The position numbers were made by a program, and so were the translations under genes. 64,000 nucleotides of DNA, taken from Herbaspirillum sp. 3R11 (GTDB taxonomy: Bacteria; Pseudomonadota; Gammaproteobacteria; Burkholderiales; Burkholderiaceae_D). The notes beneath the pieces are model-generated. The model saw nothing but the letters and a program-made list of their open reading frames with translations, ran no database searches and was not told where the DNA came from. Where the stretch lies: contig NZ_SPNJ01000005.1 in NCBI RefSeq assembly GCF_004563925.1, forward strand, positions 186,001-250,000, given 5' to 3'. This document shows, piece by piece, positions 12,258 through 53,189 of this stretch (position 1 is the first letter of the stretch; every line of letters begins with the position of its first letter).

Positions 12258-13481
12258 ATGAACGCACCTCTCTCAGCCTCCTCCTCCCTTTTCACCGCCA
12301 TCGAAATGGCGCCCCGCGACCCTATTCTCGGCATTACCGATGCATACAATGCCGACAAGAATCCGGGCAAAACCAATCTCGGCGTTGGCGTCTACTACGA
12401 CGATAACGGCAAGGTGCCGCTGCTGGAGTGCGTGAAAAAAGCGGAAGCTGAACTGGCCGCCAAACTGGCGCCGCGTACCTACTTGCCGATCGATGGTCTG
12501 GCAACGTACGACAAGGCAGTCCAGGAATTGGTATTTGGTGCCGACAGCGCAGTTGTTCAAGAGAAGCGTGCGATCACCGTGCAAGCCTTGGGCGGCACCG
12601 GCGCACTGAAGCTCGGCGCCGACTTCATCAAACATTTCTCGCCGGCATCGACCCAGATCTGGATCAGCGACCCAAGCTGGGAAAACCATCGCGCGCTGTT
12701 CGAGATGGCCGGCTTCACCGTCAACAACTATCCTTACTACGACGCGGCCACTCGCGGCGTGAACTTCGCCGGCATGCTGGATGCGCTCAAGACCATGGCC
12801 TCCGGCTCGGTCGTGCTGCTGCACGCGTGCTGCCACAACCCGACCGGCGCCGACCTGACTGCCGATCAATGGACGCAAGTCATTGAAGTTGTGACCTCGC
12901 GCAGCCTGATTCCGTTCCTCGACATGGCCTATCAAGGCTTCGGCGACGGCATCGAAGAAGACGGCAAGGTGGTGCGCCGCTTCGCCGAAGCAGGCGGTCC
13001 GCTGTTCGTGTCGAACTCGTTCTCGAAGTCGTTCTCGCTGTACGGCGAGCGCGTCGGTGCGTTGAGCATCGTCGCCTCGACCAATGAAGAAGCCACTCGC
13101 GTGCTGTCGCAACTCAAGCGCGTGGTGCGCACCAACTACTCCAACCCGCCGATCCACGGTGGCCAGGTTGTGGCTACTGCACTGGCTTCGCCGGAACTGC
13201 GCGCTCTGTGGGAAAGCGAACTGGCCGAGATGCGCGTGCGCATCCGCGAAATGCGCCAGCTGCTGGTCGCGAAACTGAAAGAAAAAGCGCCTGCGCACGA
13301 TTTCGACTTCGTCATCAAGCAACGCGGCATGTTCTCGTACTCGGGCCTGACCAAGGCGCAAGTCGAGCGCCTGCGCAATGAGTTTTCGATCTACGCCGTC
13401 GACACCGGCCGCATCTGCGTGGCTGCACTGAACACCAAGAACATCGATGCCGTCGTTGACGCCATCGCCAAGGTGCTCTGA
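12258..13481 (+). CDS. aromatic amino acid / aspartate aminotransferase (TyrB/AspC family)
   Basis: 407 residues of PLP fold type I, subgroup Ialpha. The start MNAPLSASSSLFTAIEMAPRDP aligns with the family N-terminus, so the ATG at 12258 is used even though the frame is open from 12168. DAYNADKNPGKTNLGVGVYYDD, HACCHNPTGADLT, and the PLP-lysine segment SNSFSKSFSLYGERVG are visible. The enzyme transfers amino groups between aspartate or aromatic amino acids and 2-oxoglutarate. Whether it is the tyrosine- or aspartate-preferring form cannot be settled by eye. It is followed by the tRNA-Asn promoter. Confidence 0.92.
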   Translation: MNAPLSASSSLFTAIEMAPRDPILGITDAYNADKNPGKTNLGVGVYYDDNGKVPLLECVKKAEAELAAKLAPRTYLPIDGLATYDKAVQELVFGADSAVVQEKRAITVQALGGTGALKLGADFIKHFSPASTQIWISDPSWENHRALFEMAGFTVNNYPYYDAATRGVNFAGMLDALKTMASGSVVLLHACCHNPTGADLTADQWTQVIEVVTSRSLIPFLDMAYQGFGDGIEEDGKVVRRFAEAGGPLFVSNSFSKSFSLYGERVGALSIVASTNEEATRVLSQLKRVVRTNYSNPPIHGGQVVATALASPELRALWESELAEMRVRIREMRQLLVAKLKEKAPAHDFDFVIKQRGMFSYSGLTKAQVERLRNEFSIYAVDTGRICVAALNTKNIDAVVDAIAKVL

Positions 13482-13529
13482 TCGGGGGAGTGCATTCCAG
13501 CCTGAAAATGGCCGGGATGCAAAAAGGTT

Positions 13530-13558
13530 TTGACAGTAATTAAAATTCCGGTCATAAT
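13530..13558 (+). promoter_or_regulatory. sigma-70 promoter of the first tRNA-Asn gene
   Basis: A consensus -35 TTGACA (13530-13535), a 17-base spacer and CATAAT (13553-13558) lie 15 bases before the tRNA. Confidence 0.8.
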
Positions 13559-13573
13559 CTTTTTCTCTGCTGT

Positions 13574-13649
13574 TCCCTGATAGCTCAGTTGGTAGAGCGA
13601 CGGACTGTTAATCCGCAGGTCCCTGGTTCGAGTCCAGGTCGGGGAGCCA
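13574..13649 (+). tRNA. tRNA-Asn (anticodon GTT), copy 1
   Basis: A 76-base cloverleaf: acceptor TCCCTGA/TCGGGGA (one wobble), D arm GCTC/GAGC, anticodon loop CTGTTAA giving GTT, T arm with GGTTCGAGTCC, and encoded CCA. The top pair of the anticodon stem is an A-C mismatch, the same in both copies. The sequence is identical to copy 2. Confidence 0.97.
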
Positions 13650-13663
13650 AAAAATTCGAAGAA

Positions 13664-13688
13664 GCCTCGCATCCGTGCGGGGCTTTTT
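13664..13688 (+). terminator. terminator of tRNA-Asn copy 1
   Basis: Stem GCCTCGCA/TGCGGGGC (one wobble), loop TCCG, then five T. The same hairpin with nearly the same lead-in recurs at 17078-17102, beyond the island. Confidence 0.85.
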
Positions 13689-13894
13689 CAATTCCGGAAA
13701 GTCGTTTTCGTGTGTCGCCGATATGCATCGCGGCGAGCACGCGCGGCCTGTTCCGGCATCGTTTTTCCTTGTCGCGCATTGCCCGCAAGGCGTGATGAAG
13801 AAGAGGGCGGCGCGTAGCGAGTTATTTAGCAATTTTCTGTCGTGGAGATATAGCCGCGAAGGAAAATTTAGTTCATAATCGCGCCCTCTGCTGT

Positions 13895-13970
13895 TCCCTG
13901 ATAGCTCAGTTGGTAGAGCGACGGACTGTTAATCCGCAGGTCCCTGGTTCGAGTCCAGGTCGGGGAGCCA
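13895..13970 (+). tRNA. tRNA-Asn (anticodon GTT), copy 2; island attachment site
   Basis: Identical over 76 bases to copy 1, including CCA. Ten bases upstream are duplicated too (CTCTGCTGTT) and a CATAAT -10 box sits at 13874-13879, but no good -35 is seen. Its 3' end is the left boundary of the A+T-rich island: the terminator that follows copy 1 directly is, for this copy, found only at 17078, after the island. The tRNA remains whole. Confidence 0.97.
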
Positions 13971-13986
13971 TAATTACTTTAGTTTT
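13961..13986 (+). repeat. att-like repeat, left copy (3' end of tRNA-Asn)
   Basis: GGGGAGCCA of the tRNA followed by TAATTACTTTAGTTTT. The middle copy at 15991 matches over about 25 bases with two or three differences; the right copy at 17055 shares only the tRNA-derived part. Confidence 0.75.
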
Positions 13987-14118
13987 AGAAAACAATGAGT
14001 TACGCCATTTTGGCGAAGCTCATTTTTTTTTGTCCAAAATTCGAGTATTTCTTTAAGTCTTTGAGTTGTAAGGCAATTTGCGTTATTTTCACGGTTCTTC
14101 TTCCGATCGGGGTAGACC

Positions 14119-14455
14119 ATGAAAAGCGAAACTGGCGGCAAAAAGATCAAACGCTCACCTCCGAGCGCCAAAATAATCAAGAACATGACAGTGGAAAGCG
14201 ATCTTCCTGAAAGGGCTGAGATTGTGGGTTTGGCTCAAACTTTTGTAAGCCTCTTTAAAAAAGATATTCAGGAAAAATTTCTTCCGAAATTTAAAAAGAC
14301 TGATCGCCGTTGATTCGACTGAAGATTTGGTTCGTAGAGAAAATCGATATCCCTCACCAATCGTTCCTACTGCAAGCCTACGCAGGTATGTTGCGACGGT
14401 GCAATGCGAATTAGAAAAATTAAAAGTTAGAGTCTTTTTTGGGAAAATAAAATGA
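14119..14455 (+). pseudogene. small unknown gene, apparently frameshifted, coupled to the downstream gene
   Basis: The ATG at 14119 (MKSETGGKKIKRSPP) opens a 64-codon frame that stops at 14313. A second frame, open from 14249, continues with protein-like sequence (AVDSTEDLVRRENRYPSPIV, then ASLRRYVATVQCELEKLK) and stops at 14453-14455, sharing ATGA with the start of the next gene. That coupling suggests the second frame is the true C-terminus. The frames would join if one base were removed in the A-rich stretch around 14257-14297 (runs of six, five and five A), giving about 110 residues. It may be a disrupted gene, a sequencing error or a +1 recoding site. No family recognised. Confidence 0.5.
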
Positions 14456-15804
14456 GTGCTCGGCCCACTTTTACACAGATCGAACCTGAGCATGAAAACT
14501 ACGGAGTTGATCGCAACCTAACTCGCAAAGAGTGGCAGGCGCTCTGCCTGAATAAATTATTGCAGGGACATCTAGTTTTCAATGAATGGCAGCAGGTTTT
14601 AATTTCCGCAGAAAACGCGGATCCTCAACACAGAACTGAATATAGATGGTCTCGGCAAGATGGCGACACAAATGAGGTCACAATATGGATGTGGACTGAG
14701 GCACGTCGAGCCTACGTCATTGATATTGGCGATCATGTGTTTGAAGACGGTTTTTCACTGGGAAGATACGAATTTCATACCGGAATCATCTTTACCAATA
14801 CCTGTTTTAAAGGAGGGCTATCAATCTTTAATTCAAGATTTTTCGGCCCGGCGCGATTTCTAGGAGTTAGGTTCGAAAATCAATTTTCAGCTGAGTGTAA
14901 ATTTGAAAGGGATGTACTTTTCGATAGCTGCGAATTTCGAGGTCGCACTTTTTTCCGTCATTCTGATTTATATTCGGCCAATTTTAGAGGCAGCATTTTT
15001 TGCGACTCGACATATTTCTCGAACACTAAATTCGGAACAATATGTTTTGACAGGGCGCATTTTGCGAAAGACGTCGATTTTTCAGGCCAGCAACAACCAG
15101 ATGGAAAGTTAGGAACTTTTGGGCGAGCTTCTTTCAGGGACGTTGAATTTGGTGGCTGCGCAGATTTTAGCAATCGAAAGTTTCTTCACGAAACTACATT
15201 TATAGGTGCAAAATTTAAGGTGGCTCCTTGGTTTCATAACTGTGATTTGCATCAAAATACTTCCTTCGATGGTGCAGAATTTTCTAGAGTGGAAATTGCT
15301 GATCCGTCAGTCGCAAAAGCGTTTAGCACATTAAGACACGCGATGAGCAAGCATCAAATAACACGTGAAGAACAACGCTTTTTAGTACTTGAGTTAGATG
15401 CAGAGAAAAGGGGCTCTAAGCTGGGTGTCGCAGCGTTGTATTTTCTATATGAGCGCGTAGCTGGTTATGGATTCTCGATTGCTAAACCTCTGTTCTTTCT
15501 AATTGTATTGCCCCTGATCTTCTTTTTTGCACTCTACTGCGGTTTAAGCGCGTATACGAATTGCCCCTCGATAGCCAGTTGTCGATTCGATACGCTAACG
15601 TTATTAGGCACAATAGAATTTTCTGTGTTGCAAAGCCTTCCTCCACTTGGCATTGAAAAAGCAAGCGATGCATTGCGTGAATCGATATTCGGTGGTGAGC
15701 ACATTGGAATCGTAATCCCGTTTATTGTGGTTCAAAAAGTTATGGCTTTAGCAGGATGGTTTTTTGTCGCATTGGCTTTGCGCAACTTATTCAAGATGAA
15801 GTGA
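14452..15804 (+). CDS. pentapeptide-repeat-like membrane protein of unknown function
   Basis: 450 residues. Residues about 100-285 form a degenerate pentapeptide-repeat region, with Phe recurring every five residues and A/C/S two before it (for example SADFSNRKF-like units, TTFIGAKF, TSFDGAEF). Residues about 285-330 are a polar helical linker (KHQITREEQRFLVLELDAEKR), and the end has a hydrophobic pair near residues 345-370 and 415-445 (FFVALALRNLFKMK) as in two-helix, channel-like membrane domains. Low G+C and the island setting point to recent transfer. Its start overlaps the stop of the upstream frame. Function unknown; phage defence or ion flux is only a guess from context. Confidence 0.7.
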   Translation: MSARPTFTQIEPEHENYGVDRNLTRKEWQALCLNKLLQGHLVFNEWQQVLISAENADPQHRTEYRWSRQDGDTNEVTIWMWTEARRAYVIDIGDHVFEDGFSLGRYEFHTGIIFTNTCFKGGLSIFNSRFFGPARFLGVRFENQFSAECKFERDVLFDSCEFRGRTFFRHSDLYSANFRGSIFCDSTYFSNTKFGTICFDRAHFAKDVDFSGQQQPDGKLGTFGRASFRDVEFGGCADFSNRKFLHETTFIGAKFKVAPWFHNCDLHQNTSFDGAEFSRVEIADPSVAKAFSTLRHAMSKHQITREEQRFLVLELDAEKRGSKLGVAALYFLYERVAGYGFSIAKPLFFLIVLPLIFFFALYCGLSAYTNCPSIASCRFDTLTLLGTIEFSVLQSLPPLGIEKASDALRESIFGGEHIGIVIPFIVVQKVMALAGWFFVALALRNLFKMK

Positions 15805-15990
15805 TTTTTGCGAGGGCAAAATTCATAGTCTTAAGATTGCCACCGGAATCAACGTGCGGGAGTTGTTGTGATCAAAGTCGTGATGAGCGAGGACAGATTT
15901 TGTTGAGATACCTTTTTGAGTACGGCAAAGCCAGAAGGGGGAGCTAGATGCATCGCGTTAAAACCTCGAAAGCTCCTAGCGGGTATGGTT

Positions 15991-16016
15991 TGGGGAGCCA
16001 TAATCACTTTATTTTT
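15991..16016 (+). repeat. att-like repeat, middle copy
   Basis: TGGGGAGCCATAATCACTTT and following T-rich bases repeat the sequence across the tRNA-Asn/island junction at 13961, including non-tRNA bases. It has no tRNA sequence upstream, as expected for an internal junction between two tandem elements. Confidence 0.65.
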
Positions 16017-16056
16017 GCCAAAGTTTTTAAACTCCTTTTCTGCATGCGTAACCACC

Positions 16057-16902
16057 ATGTCTAGAGAGCATCTATTGGAGGTGCTACAACAACACATGCG
16101 GCGCGAGAGTGTACATGGTCTATATAGTCTTTCTATGGATCACTCTCCGAGTGAGCAGCTAACCGGCGAAACGTGGCATACGACCGTATTAATAATGTCT
16201 TCTCACATGCAGCACGCAATGCTTGCTGCTCGGCTCGCTCATAGGCTTCGCCATAAGACCGGAATTTTGATGAAGTGGAAAAATGCTTCAAAAAAATATC
16301 GAGACTGTTTTCTATCTGTTTTTTTTGAAGAACTAAATGTAAGCCCAGCTGTTTCGATATTTGCGATTTCGGCGAAAGAGGAGGCAATCAGAGATTCGGC
16401 GGAGCATTTCATTCGAGAACTTGGTTTGCAACGACACTACAGCAGAGCTGAGACTTCAGAGGGGAAAATTCGTGTTGAAATTGGGCCGCTTATCAATGTT
16501 ACCAAAGGAGAGAGGCTCACTATTTCGCTGTCTGAAAATAGAGCGTTAATGGGGCTTCATATTGCTCATTTCGTGATCAGAATGCAGAGTTGTATGTATG
16601 AGGCTGCGAAAAATATTGATCAGGTCTCTATGATTAATTTTAATTTTCTGGGAGACAAATTTCCTGGTCCGCCCGGACAAGAAATGGATTTAATGTTTCA
16701 AGCACTAACGAGTTTTAGTAGGGAAAAAGGACGAATTGCGTGGGGCTATTTCGGTGAAAGCGATACTGAGGAAACGGACTTGTTAGCAGACAATTTAGCT
16801 GGCGCTTTGAACGCCACACATCGCAAACAATGCGATTTTTCAGGATCTAATAGCAACACAATGGATTCTGGATTGTTTTATTGGGAAGTCTGGTCGGTAT
16901 AG
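16057..16902 (+). CDS. hypothetical island protein
   Basis: 281 residues from the ATG at 16057 (MSREHLLEVLQQHMRRES). I do not recognise a family. The protein looks soluble, with a helical N-terminus, a Met/His-rich segment around residues 45-60 (LIMSSHMQHAMLAARLAHRL) and a central mixed region. The same frame is open back to 15916, but those upstream codons run through the att-like repeat at 15991 and give an artificial hydrophobic stretch, so they are not included. No good ribosome site precedes the ATG. A+T-rich, like the rest of the island. It is the only gene in the second, 1.1-kb unit. From 16903 to 17181 there is only att sequence and the tRNA terminator. Confidence 0.6.
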   Translation: MSREHLLEVLQQHMRRESVHGLYSLSMDHSPSEQLTGETWHTTVLIMSSHMQHAMLAARLAHRLRHKTGILMKWKNASKKYRDCFLSVFFEELNVSPAVSIFAISAKEEAIRDSAEHFIRELGLQRHYSRAETSEGKIRVEIGPLINVTKGERLTISLSENRALMGLHIAHFVIRMQSCMYEAAKNIDQVSMINFNFLGDKFPGPPGQEMDLMFQALTSFSREKGRIAWGYFGESDTEETDLLADNLAGALNATHRKQCDFSGSNSNTMDSGLFYWEVWSV

Positions 16903-17054
16903 GTTCGCAGATCAGCGATCAGTTGGAGTCTTGCTTAAGGAAAGAACTTCGGTTTTTGGATGTCTTGGACAGGAGTGCATGCTTGGGCGCGATGACGTGA
17001 GGCGGGAGTTGAACCACTAGTGTTAAAATTCTAAAGGTTCGTAGTGAGTGCGGC

Positions 17055-29635: not shown

Positions 29636-31722
29636 ACATCAACAGCATGAAACTGCCGACCTGGGTGCCGGTCAAGCACGCCAAGGCGCTCACGGCGCCG
29701 GTCCTGATCGTCATGATGCTGGCGATGATGGTGCTGCCGCTGCCGGCCTTTGCACTCGACATCCTGTTCAGCTTCAATATTTCGTTGTCGGTGATCGTGC
29801 TGCTGACGGCGCTGTACACAGTCAAGCCGCTCGACTTCGTGGCGTTCCCGGCGGTGCTGCTGGTGAGCACCATGCTGCGTCTGTCGCTCAACGTCGCCTC
29901 CACCCGCGTCGTGCTGACCGAAGGCCATACCGGTCCCGACGCAGCGGGTAAAGTGATTGAGGCCTTCGGCCACTTCCTGATCGGCGGCAACTACACCGTT
30001 GGTATCGTCGTGTTCATCATTTTGACGATCATCAACTTCACCGTCGTCACCAAGGGCGCCGGTCGTATCGCCGAAGTGGGCGCACGCTTTACCCTTGACG
30101 CGATGCCCGGCAAGCAGATGGCGATCGACGCCGATCTCAATGCCGGCATGATCGGCGAGCCGGAAGCCCGCGCCCGTCGCAAGGAAGTCGCGCAGGAAGC
30201 AGAATTCTATGGCGCCATGGACGGTGCGAGTAAGTACGTGCGCGGCGATGCCGTGGCCGGCATCATCGTGACCGTGGTCAACATCGTCGGCGGTCTGGTG
30301 GTCGGTATGGTCCAGCATGATCTGGCCTTTGACTTGGCGTTGAAGAACTACACGCTGCTTGCCATCGGTGACGGCCTGGTCGCGCAGATCCCTTCCCTGA
30401 TCATCTCGACTGCTGCCGGTGTGGTGGTCTCGCGCGTGGCCAATGACCAAGACGTCGGCGGTCAGCTGATCAACCAGTTGTTCGCCAAGGCGGAAGTCCT
30501 GTACCTGACCGCCATCATCATCGGCGGCATGGGCTTGATCCCGGGCATGCCGCACGTCTCCTTCATCATCATCGCCAGCCTGCTGGCTGCTGCGGGTTAC
30601 TCGGTGAACAAGCGCAAGCAGGAGGCCGGCGCTATCGCCGAATTGCCTGCTCCGGTCACGACGCCGCAGGAAATCGAAGAAGCCACCTGGCAGGATATTC
30701 TCCCGGTCGACACGCTCGGTCTGGAAGTTGGTTATCGCCTGATCCCGCTGGTGGATAAAGGGCAGGGCGGCGAACTGCTGCGCCGGATCAAGGGCATCCG
30801 CAAGAAATTCGCGCAGGAAGTCGGCTTCCTGTCGCCGCCGGTCCATATTCGCGATAACCTGGAGCTCAAACCTTCGGCCTACCGCATCGCCTTGAAGGGC
30901 GTGGAAATCGGCAAGGGCGAGGCTACTTTCGGCCAGTTCCTGGCGATCAATCCGGGTATGGTCACCGGTCCGTTGCCGGGCCTGATGACCACCGATCCTG
31001 CGTTCGGTCTGCCGGCGGTCTGGATCGAAAGCAACATGCGCGAAATGGCGCAGACCATGGGTTATACCGTGGTCGATACCGGCACCGTTATCGCTACGCA
31101 CCTGAACCACTTGATCACGGTCCACGCAGCCGAATTGCTGGGTCGTCAGGAAGTGCAGCAATTGCTGGATCACATCGGCAAGGATGCGCCGAAGCTGGTC
31201 GAAGATCTGGTGCCGAAGGCGTTGCCGCTGGGCACAGTGCAAAAAGTGTTGCAAAACCTGCTCATCGAAGGCGTGCATATCCGCGATATGCGGACTATCA
31301 TCGAAACCCTGGCCGAGCATGCGCCACGCGTGCAGGAGCCGAATGAATTGACCGCCATCGTGCGCATTGCCTTGGGCCGCGCGATCGTGCAGCAGATTTT
31401 CCCGACCGAGAGCGAGCTGTCGGTCATGACGCTGGACAACAAGCTGGAACGTCTGCTCATGCAGGCGATGCAGGCCAGCGGGCCGGAAGGCGGCGGCATC
31501 GAGCCTGGTCTCGCGGATACACTGATTACGCAAACAGAAAACGCAGCACGTCATCAAGAGCAGTTGGGTTTAACCCCGGTATTGTTGGTCCCGGGTCCTT
31601 TGCGAGCATTGCTGGCGCGCTTCTTGCGACGCGCAATGCCACAACTCCGGGTGCTTTCACACGCTGAAGTTCCTGATTCGAAAACGATTAAAGTTACTAG
31701 CCTAGTTGGAGGGCAAGCATGA
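29632..31722 (+). CDS. flhA: flagellar export gate protein FlhA
   Basis: 696 residues. Eight membrane segments are followed by the FHIPEP-type loop (RLSLNVASTRVVLTEG, MPGKQMAIDADLNAG) and a large cytoplasmic domain. FlhA forms the nonameric gate ring that docks chaperone-substrate complexes and uses the proton gradient. It overlaps flhB by four bases and flhF by four bases, so flhB-flhA-flhF are translationally coupled. Confidence 0.98.
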   Translation: MNINSMKLPTWVPVKHAKALTAPVLIVMMLAMMVLPLPAFALDILFSFNISLSVIVLLTALYTVKPLDFVAFPAVLLVSTMLRLSLNVASTRVVLTEGHTGPDAAGKVIEAFGHFLIGGNYTVGIVVFIILTIINFTVVTKGAGRIAEVGARFTLDAMPGKQMAIDADLNAGMIGEPEARARRKEVAQEAEFYGAMDGASKYVRGDAVAGIIVTVVNIVGGLVVGMVQHDLAFDLALKNYTLLAIGDGLVAQIPSLIISTAAGVVVSRVANDQDVGGQLINQLFAKAEVLYLTAIIIGGMGLIPGMPHVSFIIIASLLAAAGYSVNKRKQEAGAIAELPAPVTTPQEIEEATWQDILPVDTLGLEVGYRLIPLVDKGQGGELLRRIKGIRKKFAQEVGFLSPPVHIRDNLELKPSAYRIALKGVEIGKGEATFGQFLAINPGMVTGPLPGLMTTDPAFGLPAVWIESNMREMAQTMGYTVVDTGTVIATHLNHLITVHAAELLGRQEVQQLLDHIGKDAPKLVEDLVPKALPLGTVQKVLQNLLIEGVHIRDMRTIIETLAEHAPRVQEPNELTAIVRIALGRAIVQQIFPTESELSVMTLDNKLERLLMQAMQASGPEGGGIEPGLADTLITQTENAARHQEQLGLTPVLLVPGPLRALLARFLRRAMPQLRVLSHAEVPDSKTIKVTSLVGGQA

Positions 31723-33197
31723 ACGTCAAAAAATTTATAGCAGGTTCGTCGCGAGACGCATGGCGCCAAGTGCGCGAAGCGCTGGGTCCTGACGCCGTCA
31801 TTCTCTCCAACCGGAATATCGACGACGGTGTCGAGATCCTGGCCATGGCAAACGAAGACATGTCGTCGCTGGTGGTGCCGGCCATGTCCAAGGATGCCAT
31901 GCCGCGTCCGGCCGTGCGCCGACCGCCTGCCCAGCCTGCGCCGCAACAGTCGCTGCAGGCCGCCGTGCCGCGCACACGCGTCGAACAGCAACCGCAGGCG
32001 CCCGGTGCATCCATGCCGGTCGAACACAACACGGCGCAAGCCGATGCCCGCGTCTGGCGTACCCGCAACGCAGCACGCGCCAGCGCCAAGGAGCAGCAGG
32101 TACAAGCTCTGACGCCGACGCAGGTGGCTGCCGGTCCCAAGGCCGCTGTCGCTGCTGCAGCTGCAGTTGCAGCTCGTCCGCAACAGCCCGGCGTCATGGC
32201 TGAATTCGACGGCAAGGACTACGACGAAATCCTGTCCGACGTCATGACGGAGATCCGATCCATGCGCGGCGTGCTGGAAACCCAACTGGCGGAAATCTCC
32301 TGGGGCGGCACGCAAAAGCGCGAACCGGCCAAGGCGGCGATCATGCGTGAAATGCTGGCCGCCGGTTTCAGCGCCAGCCTGTCGCGCCTGATCACCGAGA
32401 ACTTGCCGCAAAGCCCGAAATCGCAAGACGCCATGTTCTGGGTCAAGTCGGTGCTGGCCAAGAATCTGATGACCATGGCCAACGAAAACGAATTGCTGGA
32501 AGAAGGCGGCGTCTACGCGCTGGTCGGTCCGACCGGTGTTGGCAAAACGACCACGACCGCGAAACTGGCGGCGCGTTGCGTGATGCGCCACGGTCCGGGC
32601 AAGCTGGCGCTGATCACCACCGACGGCTACCGTATCGGCGGCTACGAGCAATTGCGCATTTACGGCAAGATTCTCGGCGTGATGGTGCACTCGGTCAAAG
32701 ATGAATCCGATTTGCGTATCGCACTCGACGAACTGCGCGGCAAACATACTGTCCTAATCGATACTGCCGGCATGGGCCAGCGCGATCAGATGGTGGCCGA
32801 ACAGGCCGCCATGCTGTCGGGCGCAGGTACCGACATCAAGCGCCTGTTGTGCCTCAATGCAACGGCGACCGGCGGCACGCTCAATGAAGTCGTGAGCGCG
32901 TATTCGGGCGATGGCCTGGCGGGTTGCATTATTACCAAGCTCGACGAAGCGGCAACCATCGGCAACGTGCTGGATGTTGTCATCCGTCAAAAACTGAATC
33001 TGTATTACGTGGCGAACGGTCAGCGCGTGCCGGAAGATTTGCACGTTGCCAACAGGTTGTATCTGGCTGACCGCGCTTTTAAACTGAAGCGAGAAACAGC
33101 ACCGTTCGAATTTCAGGATGCCGAGTTGCCGGTTGTTGTCGGACCGACGGCCACGGCCATGAATGACAAAAGCCTGCGGGAGGTGATCCTTGGCTAG
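31719..33197 (+). CDS. flhF: flagellar placement GTPase FlhF
   Basis: 492 residues. A short N-terminal B domain (MNVKKFIAGSSRDAWRQVREAL) is followed by a long low-complexity Ala/Pro/Gln linker (about residues 65-150), then the SRP-type NG domains: GPTGVGKTTTTAKLA (G1), TTDGYRIGGYEQL, IDTAGMGQRDQM (G3) and ITKLDEAATIG (G4-like). It recruits early flagellar parts to the pole. Its GTPase is normally triggered by the N-terminus of FlhG, whose gene overlaps its end by eight bases. Confidence 0.95.
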   Translation: MNVKKFIAGSSRDAWRQVREALGPDAVILSNRNIDDGVEILAMANEDMSSLVVPAMSKDAMPRPAVRRPPAQPAPQQSLQAAVPRTRVEQQPQAPGASMPVEHNTAQADARVWRTRNAARASAKEQQVQALTPTQVAAGPKAAVAAAAAVAARPQQPGVMAEFDGKDYDEILSDVMTEIRSMRGVLETQLAEISWGGTQKREPAKAAIMREMLAAGFSASLSRLITENLPQSPKSQDAMFWVKSVLAKNLMTMANENELLEEGGVYALVGPTGVGKTTTTAKLAARCVMRHGPGKLALITTDGYRIGGYEQLRIYGKILGVMVHSVKDESDLRIALDELRGKHTVLIDTAGMGQRDQMVAEQAAMLSGAGTDIKRLLCLNATATGGTLNEVVSAYSGDGLAGCIITKLDEAATIGNVLDVVIRQKLNLYYVANGQRVPEDLHVANRLYLADRAFKLKRETAPFEFQDAELPVVVGPTATAMNDKSLREVILG

Positions 33198-34029
33198 CTA
33201 TGACGTTGATCAAGCGGAAGGACTGCGACGGATGCTGGAGCGTCCGACGCCGCGCGTGTTCACTTTCTTCTCGGTTCTTCCCGACGATGAAAAAGGCGCG
33301 ATGCTGATCAATCTGGCAGCCTCTCTTGCCGCCGCCGACCACAACGCATTACTGGTCGACGCTTGCATGACGCCCTCGGTGATCTTGTCGCGTTTCGGCG
33401 GTGTCGCCGTGGCGACACTGCTTGACGTTGCCCGTCAGGAGCGGCGTTTGGACGAAGCGGTACGCATGGTGCCGGAAGGTTTCGCACTGGCGCGCCTGTC
33501 GCGCAAGAATGTATCGGCTTCCACGCATCCGCAAGCCTCACGGCTGGCACAAATTTTCGACGGACTGACGGAAGAGTCGGACATCACGCTCATCAATGGT
33601 GAGTTGAACGACGACGAACTGCTGCCGGTGCCGGCCATGGAAATGGGCGAAATCGTGGTGCACATGTCGACCAGCCCGACCTCGATCAAGGCGGCTTACG
33701 TCTTGCTCAAGGGCCTCAGCGACAAGCTCGGCCGCCGTCCTTTCAACCTGCTCGTGAGCGGTGGTTCGGACGCGGAAGCCCAGATGGTGTATGCCAACAT
33801 GGCGCAGGCGGCCAATCGCTACCTGGCGGCGCAATTGCATTTCATGGGCTCCATCCCGGCAGATGAACATATCCGTCGCGCATCGGGACAGGGCCGCACC
33901 GTGCTGGAAGCATTTCCGCTGGCCGGCGCGACGCTTGCGTTCAAGCGTCTGGCCGATCAGTTTTCGTTGTCCAATCTCACCAAAGGCACGTACGGTATGG
34001 CAACCGATGGTGCAAGTCTCGGAGTATGA
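33190..34029 (+). CDS. flhG: FlhG/FleN-like MinD-family protein without a recognisable P-loop
   Basis: 279 residues from a TTG start at 33190, preceded by GGGAGGTGATCC, an almost perfect Shine-Dalgarno. The N-terminal FlhF-activating motif DQAEGLRR (residues 7-14) is present. The MinD-type KGGVGKT expected near residues 25-35 reads LPDDEKGAML, and the DAD of the A' motif reads DAC. The fold otherwise follows MinD (NLAASLAAADHNALLVDA, a strand with STSPTSIKAAYVLLKGL). ATP-driven dimerisation is therefore doubtful while FlhF activation may be kept. Position between flhF and fliA is the standard flhG place. Confidence 0.85.
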   Translation: MASYDVDQAEGLRRMLERPTPRVFTFFSVLPDDEKGAMLINLAASLAAADHNALLVDACMTPSVILSRFGGVAVATLLDVARQERRLDEAVRMVPEGFALARLSRKNVSASTHPQASRLAQIFDGLTEESDITLINGELNDDELLPVPAMEMGEIVVHMSTSPTSIKAAYVLLKGLSDKLGRRPFNLLVSGGSDAEAQMVYANMAQAANRYLAAQLHFMGSIPADEHIRRASGQGRTVLEAFPLAGATLAFKRLADQFSLSNLTKGTYGMATDGASLGV

Positions 34030-34035
34030 CGTGTT

Positions 34036-34770
34036 ATGTATAACGTCAAGGGAAAGACGACCAAGAACGATTTGCTCGAGCTGCATGCGGCGCTTGTAAA
34101 AAAGCTGGCGCATCAGATGAAGGCAAAGCTTCCGCCGAGCGTGGAAGTGGACGACTTGATTCAGGCAGGCATGATCGGTCTGCTTGATGCCGTCAATCGC
34201 TATGAAGAAACGCACGGCGCGCAGTTCGAAACCTATGCCGTGCAGCGTATCCGCGGCGCCATGCTGGACGAACTGCGCAGCAGCGACTGGCTGCCGCGCA
34301 GCATCCGCCAGAATACCCGCAAGATCGAAGAGGCCATCCATGTCCTGCTGCAACAACTCGGCCGTCCGCCGCAGGAGACCGAGGTCGCCACGCAGCTCAA
34401 GCTGAGCTTGCCGGAATACCAGGACATGCTGACCGAATGCGGCGGCCACCAGCTGATTTACTACGAAGATTTCCACGATGCCGATGGCGGTCACGAGCAT
34501 TTCCTCGATCGTTATCAGACCCGTGATACCGATGACCCGTTGCAGAACCTGATCAACGGTGGTTTCCGCGACGCCGTCATCGATTCGATCAAGGCCCTGC
34601 CTGAGCGTGAAAAAATCCTCATGGGCCTGTACTACGAACAGGAAATGAACTTGAAGGAAATCGGCGCCGTCATGGGCGTCTCCGAGTCGCGGGTTTGCCA
34701 GCTGCACAGCCAGGCCATCGCCCGCATGCGCTCGACCTTGAGGGAGCAGGCGTGGACTGGAGTAGCGTAG
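34036..34770 (+). CDS. fliA: RNA polymerase sigma-28 factor FliA
   Basis: 244 residues. Region 2 has DDLIQAGMIGLLDAVNRYE and FETYAVQRIRGAMLDELRSSDW; region 3 has RKIEEAIHVL; region 4 has LPEREKILMGLYYEQEMNLKEIG and the helix-turn-helix SESRVCQLHSQAIARMR. It transcribes late flagellar and chemotaxis genes and is held by FlgM until the hook is finished. A perfect target site lies before flgM, another before flgK. Start ATG 34036, six bases after the flhG stop. The C-terminus overlaps the motC start. Confidence 0.97.
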   Translation: MYNVKGKTTKNDLLELHAALVKKLAHQMKAKLPPSVEVDDLIQAGMIGLLDAVNRYEETHGAQFETYAVQRIRGAMLDELRSSDWLPRSIRQNTRKIEEAIHVLLQQLGRPPQETEVATQLKLSLPEYQDMLTECGGHQLIYYEDFHDADGGHEHFLDRYQTRDTDDPLQNLINGGFRDAVIDSIKALPEREKILMGLYYEQEMNLKEIGAVMGVSESRVCQLHSQAIARMRSTLREQAWTGVA

Positions 34771-51737: not shown

Positions 51738-52183
51738 CTATTGAGTTTGCGGATGCGCTCGGCAGGAGTGATGATGTCGGTCAGACGGATACCGAACTTG
51801 TCATTGACCACCACCACTTCACCTTGTGCAATCAGGCAACCGTTGACAAGCACGTCCATCGGTTCACCGGCCATACCGTCGAGTTCCACCACCGAACCCT
51901 GCGCCAGTTGCAGCAGATTCTTGATGGCAATCTTGGTGCGGCCCAGTTCCACTGTCAGCTGAACCGGGATGTCGAGGATGAAGTCGATGTCGTTGGGCGT
52001 GTTGGTCTGGATATCCGACGCGCTCAGATCCTTGAAGATGGTTGCTTCGGCCGGTTTGGTCGTCAGGCCTTCTTCTTCAGGAATGTGCTTCTTCTGCGAC
52101 TCTTCCGCTTCTGTTTGCTCGGCCAACGCGGCGCCCCACGGATCGTCTTCCGCCGCTGTTTGGTCAACGTTATCTTCAGCCAT
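51734..52183 (-). CDS. fliN: C-ring switch protein FliN
   Basis: 149 residues. The C-terminal 80 residues are the SpoA-type domain (ILDIPVQLTVELGRTKIAIKNLLQLAQGSVVELDGMAGEP, given in parts: LDIPVQLTVELGRTKI, LAQGSVVELD, VNGCLIAQGEVVVV). An acidic Glu/Ala-rich N-terminal extension of about 60 residues is common in betaproteobacteria. Works with FliM as CheY-dependent switch. Its start overlaps the fliM end by eight bases. Confidence 0.95.
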   Translation of the reverse strand: MAEDNVDQTAAEDDPWGAALAEQTEAEESQKKHIPEEEGLTTKPAEATIFKDLSASDIQTNTPNDIDFILDIPVQLTVELGRTKIAIKNLLQLAQGSVVELDGMAGEPMDVLVNGCLIAQGEVVVVNDKFGIRLTDIITPAERIRKLNR

Positions 52184-53189
52184 TCTGCTCTCCTTGAATA
52201 CTTTCTGGTGTTTCGTTGTGCGTGATGGATAGCAGTTTTTCTACGCGCAACGCGTATTGACCATTCAATTTGCCATAGCTGCACTCCATCACGGGAACGC
52301 CATCGACTTGCGCAGTGACGGGATTGGCCGTCTGCAACTGGATGACGTCGCCGACTTGCATGTTCAGCAAATCGGTAAATGTGACGCGGGCGGTGCCGAA
52401 GTTGGCGATCAGCTCAACTTCCGCGGTCTGGATCTGCTGCTTCATCAGGCGGATCCAGCGTTTGTCGACTTCCAGGGCTTCACCTTGCATGCTGCTGGTG
52501 AGCTTGTCCCGGACCGGTTCGATCATCGAGTAGGGCGTGCAGATGTGAATTTCGCCACTGACGGGTCCCAGCTCGATCGTGAACGACGTCGACACCACAA
52601 CTTCATTGGGCGTGGCGATGTTGGCGAACTGCGTATTCAGTTCCGAGCGGATGTACTCGAATTCAATCGGGTAAATCGGCTCCCAGGACTTGGAGTAATT
52701 TTCAAACACGATATCCAGCACGCGCATGATGATGCGCTGCTCGGTCGGCGTGAATTCACGGCCTTCGATACGGGTATGGAAGCGTCCGTCGCCGCCGAAC
52801 ATGTTGTCCACCAGCAGGAACACGAACTGCGGATCGAAGACTACCAGGCCGATGCCGCGGAACGGTTTGATGTGGACCAGGTTCAGGTTGGTCGGCACCA
52901 CCAGGTTACGGATGAATTCGCTGTACTTCGAGACTTTCACAGGGCCGACCGAAATTTCGGCGGTGCGGTGCAGGAAGTTGAACAAACCGATGCGGAACAG
53001 GCGGGCGAAACGTTCGTTGATGATTTCGAGCGTCGGCATCCGGCCGCGAACGATACGCTCTTGCGTTGCAAGATTGTAGTTGCGTACCGTCCCGGGGGTT
53101 TCTTCGACGCTTTTTTCTTCGTCTTCGTCCCCCGTCACTCCTCTTAGGAGTGCATCGACTTCTTCCTGCGATAGAAAGTGTTCTGCCAT
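52176..53189 (-). CDS. fliM: C-ring switch protein FliM
   Basis: 337 residues from the ATG at 53189, four bases after the fliL stop. The N-terminal CheY-binding helix has LSQEEVDALL; the middle domain has FNFLHRTAEISVG and MFGGDGRFHTRIEGREFTP; the C-terminal SpoA domain has LNMQVGDVIQLQ. Frame continues upstream of 53189 through fliL without meaning. It passes the CheY signal to FliG. Confidence 0.97.
   Translation of the reverse strand: MAEHFLSQEEVDALLRGVTGDEDEEKSVEETPGTVRNYNLATQERIVRGRMPTLEIINERFARLFRIGLFNFLHRTAEISVGPVKVSKYSEFIRNLVVPTNLNLVHIKPFRGIGLVVFDPQFVFLLVDNMFGGDGRFHTRIEGREFTPTEQRIIMRVLDIVFENYSKSWEPIYPIEFEYIRSELNTQFANIATPNEVVVSTSFTIELGPVSGEIHICTPYSMIEPVRDKLTSSMQGEALEVDKRWIRLMKQQIQTAEVELIANFGTARVTFTDLLNMQVGDVIQLQTANPVTAQVDGVPVMECSYGKLNGQYALRVEKLLSITHNETPESIQGEQNG

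Follow-up and report, generated by a model that had tools for sequence, protein, structure and literature searches.

FlhG takes part in controlling how many flagella a bacterium has and where they stand. Can it work in flagellar assembly without its ATP site? The question is raised by the flhG gene in a 64,000-nucleotide stretch of Herbaspirillum DNA (the whole stretch that was analysed, here called the window), which a preliminary description had read as encoding an FlhF activator without an ATP-driven cycle. The excerpted text of a 2025 review treats FlhG as an ATPase throughout, with an ATP-dependent dimer and membrane cycle underlying numerical control (PMC12826062), and our literature search, which covered open PubMed Central papers only, found no published FlhG without an ATP site.

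The gene is located at 33190..34029 on the forward strand as the third gene of flhA-flhF-flhG-fliA. It is an ORF of 279 amino acid residues with a TTG start, and this start overlaps the stop of flhF by 8 bases. The flhF gene (31719..33197, +) encodes an SRP-type GTPase (TIGR03499, 279.5 bits against a cut-off of 174) whose G motifs are intact by reading, and fliA (34036..34770, +), the standard neighbour encoding sigma-28, was matched by FliA models above cut-off. With flhF before it and fliA behind it, flhG is in its standard place, as had been stated. FlhF was also detected in the flanking sequence read at 254 of the 268 helix-bearing flhG loci described below. The best phmmer matches of the flhG product were FleN (6e-19) and FlhG 4rz3 (2e-7). 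An antisense ORF of 389 amino acid residues covers flhG and fliA (33538-34707, −) and is probably a side effect of codon usage in genes rich in G+C. Elsewhere in the window, two tRNA genes with equal scores lie at 13574-13646 and 13895-13967 (+), and a simple coding pick gave no ORF in 13481-17044.

Residue equivalences were obtained by aligning a profile of 63 relatives to Geobacillus (Gt) FlhG (4rz3), with a chain numbering offset of 8 that was deduced from the fit of both K36 and D60. According to the excerpted text of PMC12327844, Gt FlhG K36A cannot bind ATP and D60A cannot hydrolyse it. As shown by the alignment, the FlhF-activating (enhancer) helix motif DQAEGLR of the window FlhG (residues 7-13; 33208..33228, +) corresponds to DQAEQLR of Geobacillus FlhG, and DQAEGLRR, earlier reported as intact, is indeed present as residues 7-14. 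Where Geobacillus FlhG has S-GKGGVGKS, the window protein has S28-VLPDDEKG, and these residues 29-36 (33274..33297, +) replace the deviant Walker A motif GKGGVGK[ST], in agreement with the LPDDEKGAML noticed at this place before. The claim that the P-loop was lost held, with one correction: neither the glycine loop nor the signature Lys (Gt K31 position) is left, but K35 stands at the exact position of the Walker A Lys (Gt K36). DxD is replaced by DAC (residues 57-59; 33358..33366, +), with C59 at the hydrolytic Asp (Gt D60), as the description of DAC for DAD had implied. Two further losses had escaped that description. The Walker B Asp is replaced by Asn136 (33595..33597, +; residue count across rows), and in the C-terminal tail (residues 263-279; 33976..34026, +) a crude pattern scan found no amphipathic membrane helix of the FFxERL[IL] type. 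Two residues of the FliY-binding face have equivalents by the 4rz3 mapping, namely Lys174 (33709..33711, +; Gt K177) and Tyr211 (33820..33822, +; Gt F215).

The fold was predicted with AlphaFold2 as a single chain from a 63-sequence alignment without P-loops, a model that cannot show nucleotide or ligand. The modelling that had been suggested as a check gave a full MinD-type (SIMIBI) domain (pLDDT 85.9, pTM 0.83), so that the FlhG/FleN fold is predicted to be retained, with a helix where the P-loop was expected. Strand 1 spans residues 22-28, and helix 1 (residues 32-48) starts inside the phosphate-loop position. The DQA helix was modelled at residues 8-17 with low confidence (block means of 52 and 60 for residues 1-20), and residues 263-279 were unordered (pLDDT <50). 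The structure closest to the model was FleN-AMPPNP (5j1j; Z 25.8, rmsd 2.6 over 239 residues), followed by Geobacillus FlhG (4rz2; Z 25.4), both by Foldseek and VIA-align 2. We also considered, and rejected, that a P-loop might lie hidden at another place in the sequence: no Pfam or NCBIfam family scored above its cut-off for the window FlhG, and the model consists of one SIMIBI domain.

The preliminary description had proposed an alignment with FlhG of Oxalobacteraceae and other Burkholderiales. We read 309 loci (L001-L310), a set that covers part of the 399 genomes of the GTDB order Burkholderiales and leans to Oxalobacteraceae; 268 distinct rows, nearly all betaproteobacterial, had the helix, 14 lacked DQA and 27 were dropped as duplicate or short. 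The DQA motif was used as the filter for the 268 rows and as the pattern in one search, so its presence in 268/268 is circular; 203 of the rows came from searches without that pattern. Named loci account for 65 of the 268, two of them with non-betaproteobacterial titles (L192 and L194). The contig of L192, titled as an Alistipes senegalensis MAG, bears a betaproteobacterial-type flhG and is probably misbinned.

The full Walker A motif (GKGGxGK[ST]) was found in none of the 268 helix-bearing rows. A generic GxxxxGK[ST] was present in 34, the Lys was lost with G-x-[ST] kept in 72, and 162 had no such loop. At least one generic Walker A was found in 14 of the 40 order families having a helix-bearing FlhG. 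The window gene is therefore not the single-gene oddity that had been implied, since the ATP site has been changed to different degrees across the order. The signature Lys was kept in 11/268 and the hydrolytic Asp in 21/268, while D57, the first Asp of the pair, was kept in 257/268 and the Walker B Asp in 208/268. On the C-ring face, the Lys174 position was Lys in 265/268 and the F215-equivalent position was Tyr in 184 and Phe in 63 (247/268). The membrane-helix motif was found in 29/29 rows with full Walker A (all outside the order), 30/34 with generic Walker A, 42/72 with the Lys lost and 8/162 without the glycine loop, 7 of these 8 being doubtful. Thirteen of the 14 betaproteobacterial rows without DQA had a canonical Walker A, four of these thirteen lying beside a divergent FlhF and FliA, and the remaining one was cut short.

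Several other loci were observed in this set. At L287, L289, L297 and L301, an FlhG-like protein with a canonical Walker A but no DQAxxLR is flanked by a divergent FlhF and FliA; these loci probably represent another kind of flagellar cluster. L290-L293 and L296 (GTDB family f49) and L245 (f18) carry canonical MinD-like proteins (KGGVGKT and DADLGLANLD), and neither FlhF nor FliA was present in the flanking sequence read there. FlhG of Sulfuricellaceae (L130 and L183, Sulfuriferula; family f34) is of the Oxalobacteraceae type, being 53 and 47 percent identical to the window protein, and this likeness may reflect transfer of a flagellar cluster. Genome G162 has an FlhG with the helix but no normal P-loop (L063) and a second, MinD-like match (C22:29381-30067) with no helix in the matched part.

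We consider it about 60% probable that the window protein is an ATP-independent FlhG, composed of an FlhF-activating helix and a probable C-ring face and having no membrane cycle. It is proposed because the parts for nucleotide-independent jobs were kept and the ATP-dependent parts were lost. In the excerpted literature, the DQAxxLR motif activates the FlhF GTPase through its Gln, and a change of this residue to Ala (Q8A) resembles flhG deletion in B. subtilis, and FliY binding by Gt FlhG is nucleotide-independent, with K177 in the FliY-binding face (PMC12327844, PMC12826062); ATP-dependent FlhG dimers contact the membrane via the C-terminal helix, and FliM/N are not taken by FlhF-bound FliG until FlhG acts. 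In the proposed mechanism, the DQAEGLR helix would enter the FlhF homodimer and supply the Gln that speeds GTP hydrolysis, the MinD-like body would be a rigid scaffold probably presenting a C-ring (FliM/FliN) face, and the former phosphate loop would form the acidic, N-capped start of helix 1. Such a scaffold with its C-ring face could enable one and the same monomer both to free FlhF from FliG and to pass on FliM/N. Because the P-loop, the hydrolytic and Walker B Asps and the membrane helix are lost, ATP-driven dimerisation and membrane shuttling should not occur, and we infer from the sequence that ATP binding and the membrane cycle are lost. Flagellar timing and place would then rest on the FlhF GTP cycle and C-ring assembly alone.

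The likely second partner of FlhG is the N-terminus of the C-ring protein FliM. The window encodes FliM at 52176..53189 (−; PF02154, 237.7 bits), and its N-terminal sequence reads MAEHFLSQEEVDALLRG, with EEVDALL there. A simple C-ring claim meets a counterpoint, as the position equivalent to R207, a further FliY-face residue of Gt FlhG, is Asn in 217/268. According to the excerpted text of PMC7226244, Walker A changes in Vibrio abolish localisation at the pole and lead to hyperflagellation, so a working ATP-free FlhG would need a changed circuit. From the sequence, the fold, the spread, the conservation and the selection described here, we infer a protein that would bind no ATP, be a monomer, activate FlhF and bind FliM. 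The earlier reading as an FlhF activator without an ATP cycle is thus supported in part: by sequence and model, the ATP site is lost together with the hydrolytic Asp and the membrane helix, the DQA helix is intact, and the gene is under purifying selection. A restriction to FlhF activation alone probably says too little, since both the Lys and the aromatic residue of the C-ring face are kept, even with Asn at the R207 position.

The conservation of the replaced loop bears on this reading and on its alternatives. The 122 Oxalobacteraceae-type rows have in common the motif S-x-x-x-[DEQ]-[DE]-[DE]-K-[GS]-A-M-L-x-N, with Asn41 invariant. Among 45 thinned family rows, pairwise identity was 0.94 in the helix, as against 0.65 for residues 22-46 and 0.53 for residues 48-261. 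In two Herbaspirillum subclades, pN/pS was 0.04 and 0.07 for residues 28-46 as against 0.18 and 0.19 for residues 47-279, and because it is lower in the replaced loop, this loop is a selected feature. Constraint and shared motif together point to a new guarded motif at the former P-loop and not to a ruin. The former P-loop could accordingly have become a new protein-protein contact (to FlhF, FliM or some other partner), in which case its conservation would reflect a gained function and not only tolerance. The motif, the higher identity and the low pN/pS would all agree with this, but the region is core strand 1 and helix 1, and packing could explain its constraint. We regard such a contact as rather unlikely to be the main explanation, and it is compatible with an ATP-independent FlhG.

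The same constraint on residues 28-46 could be expected of a rebuilt site, in which K35, D57 and new residues hold nucleotide or another phosphate ligand; the protein would then still switch, perhaps without hydrolysis. Among the Oxalobacteraceae-type rows K35 is Lys in 120/122 and residue 34 is Asp or Glu in 122/122, and the conservation of K35 and of D57 (in the 257/268 given above) is more than a dead site needs. As the Walker A Lys is so conserved, there is room for residual or altered nucleotide binding. However, every one of the 122 rows places acidic residues at 32-34, where the phosphate would be expected (three in 57 rows, two in 52 and one in 13). There is also no glycine loop, the signature Lys is rare in the order, and in the model a helix replaces the loop. 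On this balance a rebuilt site seems unlikely.

A decaying gene, drifting because FlhG is no longer needed, would fit the variety of ways in which the site is damaged across the order. Within the genus, dN/dS was 0.05-0.14 in nine pairs, the gene was detected in 34/34 genomes without an internal stop in any of the 34 matches, and the neighbours are intact. To judge from these ratios flhG is under purifying selection, and decay, being rejected on them, is very improbable. In the FlhF proteins of the 80 best named relatives, G1 (GPTGVGKTT) was intact in all 80, DT[any]G was present in 80 and TK[LM]DE in 79. The G3 motif of these relatives (L116-L195) was DTVG in 59, DTIG in 14 and DTAG in only 7. 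A sequencing, assembly or start-site error hiding a normal P-loop, which was to be recoverable by correction, is refuted by the relatives and had nothing in its favour: GK[ST] was found at the site in 0/30 and DQAxGLR in 30/30 of the genus copies read (30 of 34), a generic Walker A in 0/80 of the named relatives from independent loci (67 titled Oxalobacteraceae; nearest named record H. lusitanum P6-12, 99 percent), and intact P-loops in four paralogues of the own genome, which we take to be ParA, MinD, a BY-kinase-like protein and Mrp.

The order of the losses was traced on a quick tree of 173 rows, built with the P-loop columns left out and weak in its deep branches. The minimum number of changes on this tree was 1 for the full motif, 11 for GK[ST] and 13 for the glycine loop. 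With regain forbidden, 20 losses of GK[ST] and 16 of the glycine loop were counted, and the root fell inside the outside rows. Of the losses, those of the signature Lys and the second Asp probably date from near the base of the group, and the others came later and repeatedly. Joint loss of GK[ST], the glycine loop and the membrane helix beyond shared ancestry was not significant (4 to 6 independent pairs on supported branches). The membrane-helix motif was absent in 42/61 FlhC-positive as against 21/77 FlhC-negative order rows, a comparison with only 3 independent pairs in which FlhC-negative genomes are those not listed among the FlhC search matches. The P-loop was also lost in 54/77 FlhC-negative order rows, and FlhDC is therefore not a sufficient cause. 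Singly flagellated Comamonadaceae exist and would speak against ATP-site loss causing polar tufts. One matching case only was found for ATP-site loss with polar tufts, that of B. glumae, which has a Lys-less FlhG and, according to the excerpted text of PMC3885665, multiple polar flagella. The FlhG-binding proteins of lophotrichous systems are called unclear in the excerpted review (PMC12826062).

The ATP site was kept in the Gammaproteobacteria read outside the order. We took the best 29 of 147 matching genomes in a class search and added 40 hand-picked from lower ranks. Each of the best-scoring 29 loci combined the full motif and both Asps with the helix and the membrane motif. The 40 lower-rank rows all had the full Walker A and DxD, with the membrane motif in 28/40 (crude pattern) and the end of FlhF adjoining in 37/40; the helix was seen in 9/40, which is no frequency because the rows were hand-picked, partly for matches starting behind the helix. 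The full Walker A was thus kept in 69/69 outside FlhG proteins examined, and it occurred together with the helix in 38/69 outside rows as against 0/282 beta-set rows, both being existence counts and not frequencies because of the helix filter and the hand-picking.

In Pseudomonas, FleQ is a target of ATP-FlhG, and FleN K19A still binds FleQ in cells (excerpted text of PMC10723142). The FleQ domain PF06490 (E <1e-10) was found in 0/27 order genomes, the own genome included, as against 15/20 other Gammaproteobacteria, and this absence of FleQ is one event. Two of the genomes outside the order, G727 and G582, gave only weak FleQ matches and have retained the full Walker A. FlhC was found in 13 of the 27 FleQ-tested order genomes, including the own genome.

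By descent the window protein is FlhG, lying behind flhF and having the DQAxxLR helix and a predicted MinD-like fold. Like Geobacillus/Bacillus (YlxH) and Shewanella FlhG, it shares the order behind flhF, the DQAxxLR helix, the fold and the C-ring-face Lys, but unlike them it lacks the deviant Walker A, D60, the Walker B Asp and the membrane helix. P. aeruginosa FleN provides the closest solved structures by sequence and fold, and as it keeps the ATP site but is described in the excerpted text of PMC12713375 as having no DQAxxLR motif, it is the mirror image of the window FlhG. The window protein does not fit FleN in the sense of a FleQ antiactivator, no FleQ partner having been found by PF06490 at this threshold in the 27 order genomes. 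FlhG of Burkholderia glumae and the Cupriavidus metallidurans homologue (L114, L115) share the DQA helix and the absence of the membrane-helix motif; their Walker A Lys is lost (GVGCT, GAGAT) with the glycine loop kept, whereas Herbaspirillum has none. The protein at L312, presumably the MinD of the own genome, has the same superfamily fold but an intact GKGGVGKT, and since MinD is this separate gene the flhG product is not MinD. Nor should it be filed as an FlhG ATPase, because it lacks the Walker A motif, the hydrolytic and Walker B Asps and the membrane helix. An FlhG without an ATP site is by descent a known protein, and the variant is new to the open PubMed Central literature searched. 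It is a warning against annotating such FlhG proteins as ATPases.

The two jobs of FlhG appear to have been separated by nature here, the ATP site being lost and the partner-activating part kept. From a lineage with the helix but without the ATP site it would be seen which part of the switch cannot be dispensed with, and its proteins are natural separation-of-function variants for testing the FlhF/FlhG switch. More broadly, and with about as much doubt as belief, we suggest that FlhG may be two separable machines. Betaproteobacteria would have given up the ATP switch and membrane cycle at their base, no row having the full motif, and repeated erosion would then have left an ATP-free, GTPase-activating and C-ring-loading protein; many other Gammaproteobacteria would have lost the FlhF-activating helix while the ATPase stayed. 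If so, flagellar number and place could be set without an ATP cycle of FlhG, by the GTP clock of FlhF alone.
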